Of a stretch of 64,000 bases of DNA, positions 24,101 through 28,616 are shown in pieces (the stretch's first letter is position 1; every line of letters begins with the position of its first letter). The DNA is from an uncultured Mycobacteriaceae bacterium (GTDB lineage Bacteria; Actinomycetota; Actinomycetes; Mycobacteriales; Mycobacteriaceae), in NCBI GenBank assembly GCA_902826815.1, contig CADEGF010000028.1:1-64000 (forward strand), written 5' to 3'. The position numbers and the translations under genes are program-made. The notes under the pieces are model-generated. The model was not told where the DNA came from, ran no database searches, and was given only the letters and a program-made list of their open reading frames with translations.

Positions 24101-24418
24101 GTGAAAGAGCTGCTGGTCGAGCGTGCGTCGTCGGCATTGGCCGATGTCGACACCGTCGGCTGGACCGTGCGCTTCGATCTGCTGTCGGATCCCAACCGGC
24201 TGGAGATCCTGCTGTGCCTACACCGGGCACCAGGGATCTGCGTCGGGGATCTGGCCGCGGCGCTCGGACGCTCTGAAAACGCGGTATCCCAAGCGCTTCG
24301 GGTGCTTCGGCAGCAGGGCTGGGTAACGTCCACCCGCGCGGGCCGGGAGGTCAGCTATCGACTCGAGGACGAGATCGTCCACGAGCTGCTGCACCGCATC
24401 GGCGCTCAGCACGGCTGA
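24101..24418 (+). CDS. ArsR/SmtB-family regulator
   Basis: Winged-helix repressor of about 105 residues (LLSDPNRLEILLCLHRAPGICVGDLAAALGRSENAVSQALRVLR region at 22-65). The ICVGDL phrase is at the place where arsenic/cadmium sensors carry the ELCVCDL metal site, but only one cysteine remains, so metal sensing at that site is doubtful; the C-terminus has HELLHRIGAQH, a possible alternative histidine site. GTG 24101 has GGAG six bases upstream. It lies one remnant gene away from the KmtR-like sensor. Confidence 0.75.
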   Translation: MKELLVERASSALADVDTVGWTVRFDLLSDPNRLEILLCLHRAPGICVGDLAAALGRSENAVSQALRVLRQQGWVTSTRAGREVSYRLEDEIVHELLHRIGAQHG

Positions 24419-24429
24419 CCGCCTGCCAC

Positions 24430-24633
24430 GTGGCGCTCTACCTGCTGCCGCGGCGTCATCCGGTGCTTGTGGCACGCCAACTCGCCAGCATCGGCGAGAT
24501 TGCCGCTGGCCGACTGACTTTCGGGCTTCTCGCACGCCATGAATGTCTGGTGCGGGTTCGGAACCAGGCGCACGACCACAAGGCCGCGGTCAGCGCTGTT
24601 GCCAAGGTCCGGGCACTACTGACGGCAGGCTGA
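24430..24633 (+). pseudogene. Remnant of a luciferase-like flavin oxidoreductase
   Basis: The first 32 codons (LPRRHPVLVARQLASIGEIAAGRLTFG) match the highly conserved early part of LLM-class F420/flavin-dependent oxidoreductases, but the frame then leaves the family and stops after 67 codons. There is no full-length family member around it. I take it as a fragment; the rest of the frame is unrecognised. Confidence 0.45.
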
Positions 24634-24664
24634 CTGCGCTATTATCTGCGTATGAATGCGGATA
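24618..24664 (+). promoter_or_regulatory. Putative leaderless kmtR promoter with overlapping inverted repeat
   Basis: ACTGAC (24618-24623), 16 bases, TATTAT (24640-24645), then the ATG at 24652, six bases after the -10. No Shine-Dalgarno is visible, so a leaderless mRNA is likely. TATCTGCG (24643-24650) and TGCGGATA (24657-24664) form an imperfect inverted repeat across the -10 and start codon. It fits YATCTG-N10-CRGATR, as do the sites before cbiM and sod. Confidence 0.5.
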
Positions 24665-25032
24665 GTGGCGAACGCGCGCGGCTGCCTGATGACCAGGTGA
24701 CGCTTGTCGTCGAGATCTTCCGCATGCTGGCCGATGCCACTCGTGTGCACGTGCTGTGGCTGCTGGCCGATCGCGAGCTGTCCGTCAACGAGCTCGCCGA
24801 AGAGATCGGAAAACCCGCGCCGTCGGTGTCGCAGCACCTGGCGAAGCTGCGGATGGCGCGTCTGGTCCGCACCCGCAGGGCGGGCACGACGATCTACTAC
24901 AGCCTGGAGAACGACCACGTCCGACGGCTGGTCGTCGATGCCGTCTTCAACGCCGAGCACGCGGGCCCAGGGGTGCCGCGTCATCACCGTGACTCCCGCG
25001 ACCTGCACATCGTGGAGCAGGACAGTTCGTGA
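24652..25032 (+). CDS. kmtR: KmtR-like nickel/cobalt-sensing ArsR repressor
   Basis: ArsR/SmtB-family sensor of 126 residues, strongly resembling KmtR (Rv0827c) as I remember it (ADATRVHVLWLLADRELSVNELAEEIGKP; VVDAVFNAEHAGPGVPRHH). His89, Glu102, His103, His111 and His112 correspond, shifted by one, to the KmtR residues His88, Glu101, His102, His110 and His111 reported to bind Ni/Co. In M. tuberculosis, metal binding releases KmtR from DNA and derepresses itself and a CDF exporter. Here it heads an operon with a His-rich peptide and precedes a Ni/Co importer, so the circuit may differ. Confidence 0.82.
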   Translation: MNADSGERARLPDDQVTLVVEIFRMLADATRVHVLWLLADRELSVNELAEEIGKPAPSVSQHLAKLRMARLVRTRRAGTTIYYSLENDHVRRLVVDAVFNAEHAGPGVPRHHRDSRDLHIVEQDSS

Positions 25033-25053
25033 ATCAACGAGAGAGGGATCGAT

Positions 25054-25257
25054 ATGACCGAACAGCACAGCCACGACGAGGCTCATGTGCACGAACACAG
25101 CCATGGTGGCGACACCCACTCCCACGCGCATAGCGCCCATGACCACGAGCACGTCCAGCACGAGCACTCGCACTCGCACGACGGCGGGGCCGAGCACACG
25201 CATGAGCACGTGCACCAGTCAGGGCTCGAGACGGAGCACGCGCACGCCCATTCGTAG
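25054..25257 (+). CDS. Histidine-rich metal-binding peptide
   Basis: A 67-residue protein with 23 histidines, mostly in HxH or HS/HE/HD pairs, the rest largely acidic or small; no hydrophobic core, so it is probably disordered until metal binds. It starts 21 bases after the kmtR stop behind GAGAGGGA, clearly in the same transcription unit. By analogy with Helicobacter Hpn and the His-rich tails of HypB or SlyD it could store or buffer Ni(II) or Co(II). A small gene of this composition would often be missed by annotation. Confidence 0.75.
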   Translation: MTEQHSHDEAHVHEHSHGGDTHSHAHSAHDHEHVQHEHSHSHDGGAEHTHEHVHQSGLETEHAHAHS

Positions 25258-25272
25258 GGTTAACAACCTCTC

Positions 25273-25294
25273 CATCTGAACAGCTAGACAGATG
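25273..25294. promoter_or_regulatory. 22-bp operator upstream of cbiM
   Basis: CATCTG-AACAGCTAGA-CAGATG, perfect 6-base arms with ten bases between. It matches the site before sod at 20 of 22 positions when that one is read on the minus strand, and its left half contains TGAACA, the usual ArsR/SmtB half-site. It overlaps a possible -35 (TAGACA, 25285-25290), paired after 16 bases with CATAAC (25307-25312). Confidence 0.7.
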
Positions 25295-25364
25295 AGAAGG
25301 TCGCGGCATAACCTGAGCTGTGCCCGGCACCGAGTTCTCCGCCTCCACTGTCAGCTTCTCCGCG

Positions 25365-26051
25365 ATGCACATGAGCGACGGCATCGTCAACGCCCCGACT
25401 TCTCTGGGCTTCGGCGTGCTCGCCATCGTCGCCCTGGCGGTCTGCGCGTGGCGCGCCCGCTCTGAGCTCGACGAGAGAACCGTCCCGTTGGCAGGCCTTG
25501 TCGCCGCATTCATCTTCGCGGTCCAGATGGTCAACTTTCCGATCCTGCCCGGCGTCAGCGGACACCTGCTGGGTGGCGCGTTGGCCGCGATCCTGGTCGG
25601 CCCGTTCACCGGCGCCCTGTGCGTGGCGATCGTGCTTGTCGTGCAGTCCCTGCTGTTCGCCGACGGCGGTGTGACGGCACTGGGCACGAACATCACGAAC
25701 ATGGCCCTCATCGGCGTCGCCGCGGGCTACTCGACAGCGGTGCTTCTCTATGCGGTCGCCCGACGTCGCCGCGGCGACGTGCCGGTAGCCGGACTCGGCG
25801 TCATCGCATTCATCGCGGCGGTGGTGGGAACAGTCTGCGCATCAATGGGATTCGTCATCGAGTACGCGCTCGGCGGGGCGGCGACGACGTCGCTGGGCAC
25901 AGTGGCGAGCTATATGCTCGGCACACACGTTCTGATCGGAATCGGTGAGGGTGTGATCACTGCGCTCACTGTCATGGCCGTGGCCAGGGCCCGGCCAGAT
26001 CTCGTCTATCTGTTACGGAGTTCACGCGTCGACGCGGAGGTGTCGGTATGA
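25365..26051 (+). CDS. cbiM: ECF-type Ni/Co transporter substrate-binding membrane protein
   Basis: Integral membrane S-component of an energy-coupling-factor Ni(II)/Co(II) importer, 228 residues, six or seven hydrophobic segments. I chose ATG 25365 because the protein then begins MHMSDGI: in CbiM/NikM the free N-terminus and His2 coordinate the metal, so the N-terminal extension from GTG 25320 would disable it. The conserved GHLLGGALAA follows at about 65, and GTNITNMALIG later. It overlaps the next gene by ATGA. In M. tuberculosis this location holds the unrelated NiCoT permease nicT. No cobalamin riboswitch is visible upstream. Confidence 0.87.
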   Translation: MHMSDGIVNAPTSLGFGVLAIVALAVCAWRARSELDERTVPLAGLVAAFIFAVQMVNFPILPGVSGHLLGGALAAILVGPFTGALCVAIVLVVQSLLFADGGVTALGTNITNMALIGVAAGYSTAVLLYAVARRRRGDVPVAGLGVIAFIAAVVGTVCASMGFVIEYALGGAATTSLGTVASYMLGTHVLIGIGEGVITALTVMAVARARPDLVYLLRSSRVDAEVSV

Positions 26052-26413
26052 CTGCCACTTCGTCGCAGCATCGCTGGCTGTTCTGGATCGGCTTCGCAGT
26101 CGTCACCTTGATCGTCGCGGGCGGCGTCTCCTACCTCGCGAGCCCCAGTCCGGACGGACTCGACTCGGTGACCCTGAAGGGTTGTCAAGTCGTCGATGTC
26201 AACGGAACGGAAGAACTACAGGGCAGCTGCATCGCGCAGCACGCCGACAACCACGCGATGTCCGGCTCGCCGCTCGCTGACTACGCGATCGGCGGCAAGG
26301 ACGGCACGGGTGGATTGGCAGGCATCGTCGGCGTTTTGGCGACCGTCGCGCTCGCAGGCGGTGCGTTCTGGCTGATCTCGCGGTCGAAGTCCAAATCGAC
26401 CGTTGGTGACTGA
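26048..26413 (+). CDS. PDGLE-domain accessory subunit of the Ni/Co ECF transporter
   Basis: A 121-residue protein with two membrane segments (about 10-30 and 90-110) and an external loop that starts with SPDGLDSV, the PDGLE-domain signature. It fills the place of CbiN/NikN between the S component and CbiQ and is thought to assist metal loading. Two cysteines in the loop (GCQVV, GSCIAQH) could form a disulphide. ATGA overlap with cbiM. Confidence 0.8.
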   Translation: MTATSSQHRWLFWIGFAVVTLIVAGGVSYLASPSPDGLDSVTLKGCQVVDVNGTEELQGSCIAQHADNHAMSGSPLADYAIGGKDGTGGLAGIVGVLATVALAGGAFWLISRSKSKSTVGD

Positions 26414-26415
26414 CC

Positions 26416-27189
26416 GTGGGTGCCGGTCACGCGCATCCGCTGTACCGTGACGGCGACTCACCGCTGCATCGCGCGCCCGCCGAGGTCAAGATCGTCTGCC
26501 TGGTCGTCTTCGTTCTCGCGGTCGTCGCGACGCCCCGTGATTTGTTCTGGCCCTTCGCGGTGTACGCCGCGATCATCCTGCTCGTCTGGCGAATCGCGCA
26601 GATTCCGCTGCGCTGGATTCTGCCGCGGATGCTGATCGAGGCTCCGTTTCTGATACTCGCTGTGCTGCTGCCGTTCTCGGAGGGGGGCGAGCGCGTACAG
26701 TTCGCCGGCATGCACCTTTCGGTAGCGGGGCTTTATGCGGCGTGGGGGATCGTCATCAAGGGCACGCTCGGTGTGGCGGCTTCGCTGACGGTGGCCGCCA
26801 CCACGTCGGCCAGGGAGCTCCCACTTGGGCTGAGCAGATTGGGTGTTCCTGCCGTGATCACGTCCATGCTGGTGCTGATGATCCGCTACATCGATGTGCT
26901 CACCGCGGAAGCGAGTCGCATGCGGATGGCCAGGATATCGCGCGGAGACTCACCGCGTGCAATCCATCAGGCCGGAGCGATCGCGAAAAGTGTTGGTGCG
27001 CTGTTCCTTCGGTCCTACGAGCGAGGCGAACGGGTGTACGTGGCGATGCTGTCCCGTGGCTTCGACGGCAGCGTGCCGGACCTCGCGATGGGCACAGATG
27101 GTCGCGCCGGAGCGCGGCAGTGGTCGGTGGCGATGCTGCCTGCGATCGCGGCGGTGACGGTCGCCGCGTCGGCCTGGATGATGCGATGA
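26416..27189 (+). CDS. cbiQ: ECF transporter transmembrane (T) component
   Basis: Membrane coupling subunit of 257 residues with about five or six hydrophobic segments. The two cytoplasmic coupling motifs are visible: the helix RYIDVLTAEASRMRMARISRG at about 155-175 and RSYERGERVYVAMLSRGF at about 197-214, which grip the ATPases. GTG start two bases after the previous stop; ATGA overlap with the ATPase gene. Confidence 0.88.
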   Translation: MGAGHAHPLYRDGDSPLHRAPAEVKIVCLVVFVLAVVATPRDLFWPFAVYAAIILLVWRIAQIPLRWILPRMLIEAPFLILAVLLPFSEGGERVQFAGMHLSVAGLYAAWGIVIKGTLGVAASLTVAATTSARELPLGLSRLGVPAVITSMLVLMIRYIDVLTAEASRMRMARISRGDSPRAIHQAGAIAKSVGALFLRSYERGERVYVAMLSRGFDGSVPDLAMGTDGRAGARQWSVAMLPAIAAVTVAASAWMMR

Positions 27190-27926
27190 AAACGCCGAAC
27201 GCAATCGACATCGAGGGTCTGCGACATGTCTATCCCGACGGACATGTCGCTCTCGCAGGCCTTGACCTGACGATCTCAGCGGGGGAGCGGGTGGCGGTGC
27301 TCGGCCCAAACGGTGCAGGCAAGACCACCCTGATGCTGCATCTCAACGGCGTGTTGTCGGCCACCTCGGGATCGGTCAAGATCAGCGGAATATCGGTGAA
27401 CCGCAAGACTCTTCGCGATATCAGGCCGCGCGTCGGCCTGGTTTTCCAGGATCCCGACGATCAGTTGTTCATGCCCACCGTGGCGCAGGACATCGCATTC
27501 GGCCCCGCGAACTTCGGCCTGAGGGGTGACGCGCTGGCCGAACGCGTGCGCAGGGCACTGGAAACCGTGTCGTTGACCGATCAGGCAGACCGCAGCCCCG
27601 CGCACCTCTCGGCCGGCCAGCGGCGCAGGGCAGCGCTCGCCACGGTGCTCGCGTGTGAGCCCGAGGTCCTTGTGCTCGACGAGCCGTCTGCCAACCTCGA
27701 TCCGTTGGCCCGGCGCGAGCTCGCCGAGACCTTGAGGGGCCTGGATGCCACCATGCTGATCGTCACCCACGACCTGCCGTACGCGGCGCAACTGTGTGAC
27801 CGAGCGGTTGTGATGGCCGAAGGCGTCGTCGTCGCCGACGGCCCGATCAACGAGATCCTCAACGACGCACCGCTGCTCGAGGCCAACCGACTTGAACTGC
27901 CTTGGGGTTTCGTCGCACCACGCTAG
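27186..27926 (+). CDS. cbiO: ECF transporter ATPase component
   Basis: ABC ATPase of 246 residues powering the Ni/Co importer. Walker [10 protein letters not shown] at about 39, Q-loop [10 protein letters not shown], signature HLSAGQRRR, Walker [11 protein letters not shown]-loop NLDP and switch histidine VTHDLP are all intact. The start at 27186 overlaps cbiQ as ATGA; the longer open frame from 26742 is noise. The stop TAG (27924-27926) and the TAG of the convergent sod gene share one CTAG palindrome. Confidence 0.9.
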
Positions 27927-28543
27927 AAGATCAGGCCCTGTGCCTTGCCGGTCGCAGCGTTGAACCGATCCTGCACGTCGACCCAGTTCACAACGTTCCA
28001 GAAGGCCTTGACGTAGTCGGCCTTCACATTCTTGTACTGCAAGTAGTAGGCGTGTTCCCACATGTCGACCTGGAGCAGCGGGATGATGCCGAGGGGCACG
28101 TTGGCCTGCTGGTCGTACAGCTGGAACGTGAGCAGACGCTGACCCATCGTGTCGTAGCCGAGTACGGCCCAGCCCGACCCCTGCAGTCCGTTCGCGGCGG
28201 CGGTGAACTGCGCCCGGAACTTGTCGAACGATCCGAACTGGTCGTCGATTGCGGCGGCCAGTTCTCCGGTCGGCTTGTCACCGCCGTTGGGGGACAGGTT
28301 CTTCCACCAGATCGAGTGGTTGACGTGACCGCCGAGGTGGAATGCCAGGTTCTTCTCGTTGAGGAAGATCGCGCCGTGGTCGCCGTTGGCGCGTGCCTCT
28401 TCCAGCTTGGCGATCGCGTCGTTGAGACCCTTCACGTACGTGGCGTGGTGCTTGCCGTGGTGGATCTCGTTGATCTGGCCGGATATGTGCGGTTCCAGCG
28501 CGCCGTAATCGTAGTCCAGGTCAGGCAGGGTGTACTCGGCCAT
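27923..28543 (-). CDS. sodA: Fe/Mn superoxide dismutase
   Basis: Converts superoxide to oxygen and hydrogen peroxide; 206 residues, the usual mycobacterial length. The four metal ligands are in [10 protein letters not shown] (about residue 28), [13 protein letters not shown] (about 76), and DMWEHAYY (Asp and His, about 160). No signal peptide, as in other mycobacterial SodA. ATG 28543 has GAGG upstream; the longer frame to 28597 would run into the operator. Metal choice (Fe or Mn) cannot be decided by eye. Its promoter carries nearly the same 22-bp operator as the Ni/Co importer, unexpected for a housekeeping SOD. Confidence 0.92.
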
Positions 28544-28594
28544 GAAGTTCCTCTCTGATCTTCCATTCGCGGTCTCTCTTCTGCAGCCTACAGA

Positions 28595-28616
28595 CATCTG
28601 TCCAACTGTTCAGATG
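28595..28616. promoter_or_regulatory. 22-bp operator upstream of the superoxide dismutase gene
   Basis: On the minus strand it reads CATCTG-AACAGTTGGA-CAGATG, differing from the cbiM site at only two of 22 positions; one further base on each side also pairs. It lies 52-73 bases upstream of the sod start codon. The core TGAACAGTTGGACA is close to the ArsR/SmtB consensus TGAACA-N2-TGTTCA. Confidence 0.7.

Follow-up and report, generated by a model that had tools for sequence, protein, structure and literature searches.

An ArsR-family protein as a candidate Nur-like regulator of nickel import and sodA in environmental mycobacteria

How is a nickel/cobalt importer tied to a superoxide dismutase (SOD) in mycobacteria, and through which regulator? 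The question is raised by a 64,000-nucleotide stretch of DNA (hereafter the window; positions 1 to 64,000 of contig CADEGF010000028.1) from an uncultured Mycobacteriaceae bacterium, in which cbiM (25320..26051, forward strand), coding for the S component of an energy-coupling factor (ECF) Ni/Co importer, and a sodA-type Fe/Mn-SOD gene (27923..28543, reverse strand) are preceded by nearly the same 22-bp site. A preliminary description of this locus had named a neighboring KmtR-like protein as the first candidate for binding these sites, and had also raised a circuit like that of Streptomyces Nur, in which a nickel SOD would be encoded at another locus of the genome. Using comparative genomics across the genus we identify a different protein as the prime candidate for the operator-binding protein, namely an ArsR/SmtB-family regulator of about 105 residues encoded at 24101..24418 (forward strand), to which we give the working label ArsR2. 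We consider it probable that ArsR2 is a Nur-like repressor that, with nickel, would shut off the importer and sodA while a nickel-containing SOD (Ni-SOD, encoded by sodN) takes over.

The two sites read CATCTGAACAGCTAGACAGATG at 25273-25294 (operator 1, forward strand, 5' of cbiM) and CATCTGAACAGTTGGACAGATG at 28595-28616 (operator 2, reverse strand, 5' of sod) and mismatch at 2/22 positions, bearing out the 20/22 identity described earlier. Their cores, TGAACA-GC-TAGACA and TGAACA-GT-TGGACA respectively, both contain the ArsR-type half-site TGAACA that had been noticed at the operator center; dyads of this type are an operator feature of ArsR/SmtB metalloregulators. In operator 1 the hexamer TAGACA (25285-25290) occupies the position expected for a -35 element. 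It is followed 18 bp later by a putative -10 element, TAACCT (25309..25314, forward strand), and as this lies just five bases before the GTG start of cbiM the transcript is probably leaderless. A search of the genome from which the window derives (6.87 Mb, 141 contigs) with the pattern proposed in the preliminary description, YATCTG-N10-CRGATR, gave 15 strand matches at 10 places, and none with the backwards pattern. Looser searches have a clear background: with two mismatches allowed, the window gave 31 matches where 18.6 would be expected, a number reached by 3 of 100 shuffles, and CATCTGNNCANNNNNNCAGATG with two mismatches gave 22+23 matches in the genome against 12+7 for the backwards version. 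The best further full-length match (C54:37468) falls within a coding frame. A stricter pattern derived from relatives, ATCTGWWCANNTRGACAKRT, with at most one mismatch recovered nothing in this genome beyond the two sites 5' of cbiM and sod.

To place these sites in a wider context we used 148 genomes of the genus, including that of the window; absences among them rest on assemblies of which some are incomplete. The strict pattern, with at most one mismatch, was found in 74/148 genomes, and its backwards version in 0/148. ArsR2, called at E <=1e-15 with at most 32 candidates scored per genome, was found in 76/148. The gene had not been singled out in the preliminary description, and it tracks the motif almost perfectly: the motif is present in 74/76 genomes with ArsR2 and in 0/72 without it, in a count that ignores kinship. 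The two ArsR2 genomes without a strict match are G054 and G095, and in the former a weaker site precedes sodA, next to a second, divergent copy of ArsR2. ArsR2 also accompanies all genomes with a close CbiM (45/45) and 56/58 of those with sodN (the exceptions being G005 and G026). ArsR2 and the motif are further linked by position, in that ArsR2 lies in the upstream stretch at 33/45 cbiM loci, the window included, and ends 13-173 bp before the site at 23 of the 45 cbiM places and 7-110 bp before it at 20 further places, so at most 173 bp away at 43 of the 104 motif places recovered in the genus. In named genomes, 58/80 ArsR2 loci have within the stretch taken a site scoring at least 20 with a position weight matrix (PWM) built from the cbiM sites. 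Mycolicibacterium vaccae and M. aurum (L229 and L262) are examples of named species with both ArsR2 and the motif. Taken together, these sequence comparisons make the pairing of ArsR2 with the operator well supported.

The ArsR2 protein of the window scores above the curated cut-offs for its domain (NF033788, HTH_metalloreg, 76.4 bits with a cut-off of 55; PF01022, 38.1 bits with a cut-off of 22). In an alignment of 58 rows, some of which are repeats of one gene, D90, H94, H98 and H41 are conserved in 58/58, H104 in 57/58 and C47 in 51/58. The C-terminal residues have the spacing D-x3-H-x3-H-x5-H, which differs from that of the metal ligands of SmtB, D-x1-H-x10-H-x2-E. A Nur paralogue, for which the preliminary description had suggested looking, is not supported: a search of the genome gave just two FUR-family genes and no Nur candidate among them; by reading, we take these to be a Zur/FurB-like gene and a FurA-like gene beside katG.

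The genes behind the motif indicate its targets. The operator is found 5' of cbiM in 45/45 genomes with a close CbiM (at least 73% identity; 45/148 genomes, with G012, G041 and G120, which have only a distant one, standing outside the 45), the preliminary description having proposed a check of the motif in related cbiMQO carriers. The consensus of these sites is YATCTGWWCAGCTRGACAGRTR, with nine positions identical in 45/45. Since each was chosen by its similarity to a template, as the highest-scoring match, the independent control is the backwards search with the strict pattern. All 45 have a core like TGWWCA-N2-TRGACA, which on its right side agrees only imperfectly with TGTTCA. TANNNT follows TRGACA after 17 or 18 bp at 43/45 cbiM promoters, and visual inspection shows the same for many promoters of NicT and sodA. 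The 104 motif places comprise 45 at cbiM, 24 at NicT-type genes, 6 at NikA-like lipoprotein genes, 21 at sodA and 4 at apparent dead sodA promoters, with 4 outside these classes (G084 L166, G092 L185, G012 L189 and G040 L188). The NicT-type targets are matches to one member, which as tested reached 509.6 bits with NF052500 ("Nickel transporter NicT"; cut-off 450); of the NikA-like proteins one was tested, with NikA as the best family but under the cut-off. The 21 strict sodA places include two genomes in which sodA is in pieces (G103 and G024). At the four apparently dead promoters (L174, L177, L178 and L187) sodA-type operators stand in sodN-containing genomes without a sodA match. Their flanks align with the sodA promoters of relatives, in L187 for about 1.45 kb as far as the operator and in the other three over 38-101 bp, and no clear remnant of sodA coding sequence was found at any of them. 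These operators appear to be fossils of SOD replacement. The proposal that importer and sod share an operator is supported.

The nickel SOD that had been postulated elsewhere in the genome is indeed present (G000:C4:112520; TIGR02753, 130 bits, cut-off 90), adjoining a weak match to a sodN maturation protease (25.6 bits, cut-off 63.25). Across the genus sodN occurs in 58/148 genomes, the window's included, and in 24/25 of those without a sodA match. Considering the 52 genomes with both ArsR2 and sodA, the sodA gene has a site in 30/33 with sodN as compared with 0/19 without it. The strict pattern accounts for 21 of the 30 sites and a PWM score above 10.4 for 9 more, this cut-off being the value reached by one in 1000 resampled promoters, fixed by the resampling after the scores had been seen. 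The sodA promoters of the 19 sodN-less genomes score at best -4.1 down to -22.3. The motif itself was not found at sodN: the PWM score stayed below 8 at each of the 31 loci examined from the 58 sodN genomes. Three genomes with ArsR2, sodN and sodA have no sodA site (G062, G086 and G108), and in these the hook of SodN reads HCDLPCGVY. Most of the other sodN loci read have HCDLYCGVY or HCDLFCGVY (L151:4488-4910 and L091-L120), the variant with proline being seen in L091-L094.

Beyond the genus, ArsR2-like proteins were found in 50/298 genomes of the order, from 15/76 genera, with at most 16 candidates scored per genome. Ten loci from outside the genus (L311-L320) were inspected with about 1.5 kb on each side, and the motif was present in only one (L311), from another genus of the same family, where an ArsR2 with 74% identity is followed by the motif and then by cbiM. 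Two others have distant homologues: in L313 the gene is followed by hypA (by Pfam) and by a His-rich protein that reads as HypB-like, and in L317 by a hydrogenase maturation protease gene, with a convergent gene that reads as CbiO-like. D90, H94 and H98 are invariant in a 27-row alignment that includes such extra-generic homologues. A search of plasmids returned a single record, from Nocardia farcinica, with a sod-gene match over 12% of the query.

In the mechanism we propose, ArsR2 would bind operators whose core reads TGAACA (or TGTTCA)-N2-TRGACA and which, at sodA as at genes for nickel importers, lie across the -35 region. With nickel plentiful, ArsR2, most likely in its nickel-bound form, would repress the importer and the Fe/Mn-SOD, and the Ni-SOD encoded elsewhere in the genome would do the superoxide work; with nickel short, importer and sodA would be released together. 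The operator, its overlap through TRGACA with a likely -35 element, the target classes, the co-distribution of ArsR2 and the dependence of sodA sites on sodN are supported by the genomic comparisons, while that ArsR2 binds, that its binding represses, that nickel is the ligand and that it acts as co-repressor rather than inducer are what we infer. The last of these follows from the consideration that an importer and a nickel-free SOD would both be wanted at low nickel. We would give even chances to a more specific form of this proposal, namely that ArsR2 is a stand-alone sensor with reversed allostery, in which nickel at the D-x3-H-x3-H-x5-H residues of the C-terminal helix makes it repress both the nickel-free SOD and the uptake of nickel, and hence a partner-free equivalent of Nur built from another family and acting on another operator.

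A close functional parallel is Nur of Streptomyces coelicolor, a Fur-family protein that, in excerpts of PMC3919588 and PMC7055735, represses with nickel an Fe-SOD gene and a nickel importer while Ni-SOD is induced. The Nur-like logic suggested in the preliminary description gains support from the position of the operator at nickel importer and sodA genes. By operator position only, the likeness lies in the targets, a nickel importer and an Fe/Mn-SOD in genomes that have Ni-SOD; it is one of function and not of membership, as ArsR2 belongs to the ArsR family. A further difference is the lack of the motif at the 31 sodN loci, and another concerns the s-SodF RNA that in S. coelicolor links the two dismutases: in 12 genomes the longest exact complement between the 3' side of sodA and the 5' side of sodN was 6-9 nucleotides, against shuffled means of 6.1-7.6, so that such an RNA link was rejected as not beyond chance.

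ArsR2 also resembles SrnR of the SrnR/SrnQ system of Streptomyces griseus, an ArsR-family protein tied to nickel-dependent control of the Fe-SOD gene sodF (excerpt of PMC7055735), on which the title of a 2003 study, as cited in PMC4531530, speaks of repression with nickel. The two are not orthologous, the SrnR structure 7p6f matching ArsR2 at E=0.0031, far behind SmtB (2.9e-13) and NmtR. ArsR2 further differs in having importers as targets, of which no report for SrnR was found in the open-licence literature. At the 43 places where ArsR2 adjoins a site the gap of 7-173 bp leaves no room for a SrnQ-like partner, which was sought only there. Among mycobacterial proteins, KmtR and NmtR of Mycobacterium tuberculosis are ArsR/SmtB-family sensors of nickel and cobalt (excerpts of PMC10961391 and PMC7055735) that control exporters (the latter excerpt), whereas ArsR2 sites precede importers. 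No report of an ArsR-controlled regulon of nickel importer and sodA in mycobacteria was found in the open-licence literature.

Several observations weigh against the proposed mechanism. Proteins of the ArsR-SmtB family mostly dissociate from DNA upon metal binding (excerpt of PMC10961391), which makes the proposed direction unusual; the targets of ArsR2, for their part, argue for the opposite of metal-released derepression. The PDGLE/CbiN-like subunit gives no indication whether the importer is one for nickel or for cobalt, the -10 element of sodA in the window is off the usual spacing, and 22/80 ArsR2 loci of named genomes show no site in the stretch taken. Among the 30 sodA sites, six have scores of just 11-19.4, where the maximum of 20,000 resampled promoters was 19.5, and there are the three sodN genomes without a sodA site mentioned above. 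Both sodN and cbiM are absent from 12 genomes with ArsR2, which means that Ni-SOD is not required for the system. Finally, the association of ArsR2 with the motif was counted without tree correction. A sodA tree of 57 rows (including paralogues and three genomes without ArsR2, and omitting G024, G040 and G103, where sodA is fragmented or truncated at a contig end, although their sites count among the 30/33) shows three changes of sodN state and four of operator state, so that relatedness explains much of the difference between 30/33 and 0/19. It yields two supported independent sodN pairs, a number that does not suffice for a test; the operator changes in the same direction in an average of 1.9 of them and in the opposite direction in 0.

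The alternative that fares best, though we regard it as unlikely, is that nickel-free ArsR2 is an activator, as proposed for SrnR, the apo form switching on importer and sodA and nickel removing it. Its output logic would be identical to that of the repressor; however, the probable -35 hexamer lies inside the site, an arrangement more usual for repression, and ArsR2 is not the orthologue of SrnR by the above E-values. Less likely still is that ArsR2 controls these promoters in response to cobalt, zinc or a thiol/redox signal through C47, with only an indirect link to sodN. Importers of the cbiM type can carry cobalt, C47 is widely kept, and the 12 genomes without sodN and cbiM would fit; yet C47 is not invariant, NicT-type and NikA-like importers are among the targets, hyp genes adjoin a distant ArsR2 homologue, and among ArsR2 genomes the sodA site is found only where sodN is present. 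We consider it improbable that ArsR2, motif, sodN and importer were merely inherited together in a clade in which another gene is the true regulator. The small number of independent changes seen on the tree of sodA and the uncorrected counts of ArsR2 against motif would favor such co-inheritance, but ArsR2 ends within 173 bp of the motif at the 43 places, where the importers that follow belong to different families, and the unit of ArsR2, motif and cbiM recurs in another genus.

This leaves the neighbor originally suspected. The gene at 24652..25032 (forward strand), which we take to be KmtR-like, lies between ArsR2 and cbiM, and the third site of the preliminary description spans its start codon (24643..24664, forward strand). 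That site does match YATCTG-N10-CRGATR without mismatch, but it belongs to a different palindrome. A sequence like TATCTGCGTATGCATGCAGATA, with at least 19/22 identity, spans the kmtR start codon at 30/30 loci with the best KmtR matches, 25 of them in genomes without ArsR2, which are also without the cbiM/sod motif, and the two consensus sequences are alike at 12/22 positions. As it overlaps the first codons part of this conservation may be coding. The palindrome is possibly an auto-operator of KmtR on a leaderless gene and, judged by these comparisons, is outside the ArsR2 regulon. KmtR, called at E <=1e-20, was found in 110/148 genomes, 48 with the motif and 62 without, and 26/74 motif genomes have no KmtR; dropping 7 weak matches, 60/103 KmtR genomes are without the motif and 31/74 motif genomes without KmtR. 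That KmtR governs all three sites is hardly credible in spite of its place beside the cbiM region and the similar outer hexamers of the sites, given this distribution, its own palindrome and the presence of kmtR in the upstream stretch at just 4/45 cbiM loci. KmtR was rejected on these grounds as regulator of the cbiM and sod sites, and by distribution kmtR at this locus is a bystander. The genome has a second KmtR-like gene (G000:C35:20958-21311) with 72% identity.

The remaining genes of the locus complete the picture of the window. Besides kmtR, a gene for a His-rich protein of 67 residues (25054..25257, forward strand, by translation) stands between ArsR2 and cbiM, possibly coding for a Ni/Co-binding protein, chaperone or buffer. 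A short frame 3' of ArsR2 (24430-24633) resembles, by reading, a remnant of a flavin/F420-dependent oxidoreductase. The importer genes follow one another on the forward strand: cbiM (NF004902, 148.3 bits, under the cut-off of 219), a cbiN-like/PDGLE small membrane component (26048..26413; PF13190 PDGLE, 90.6 bits, with CbiN models under cut-off), the T component gene cbiQ (26416..27189; TIGR02454, 132.6 bits, cut-off 111.8) and the ATPase gene cbiO (27186..27926; TIGR04521, 231.7 bits, under the cut-off of 330). The product of sod matches PF00081 and PF02777. Its stop codon overlaps that of the convergent cbiO (27923-27926), and therefore the two transcripts may run into each other.

Our analysis suggests that many environmental mycobacteria share a switch in which nickel would control the swap of two superoxide-detoxifying enzymes, and it names, for a nickel regulon of these organisms, the likely regulator, the operator and the targets. 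Such a regulon would fit the loss of sodA in many of them, given that nearly all sodA-less genomes have sodN. If true, Streptomyces Nur would have a counterpart that arose by convergence in the ArsR family, and this would offer a clear test of whether a protein of that family can use a metal as co-repressor.

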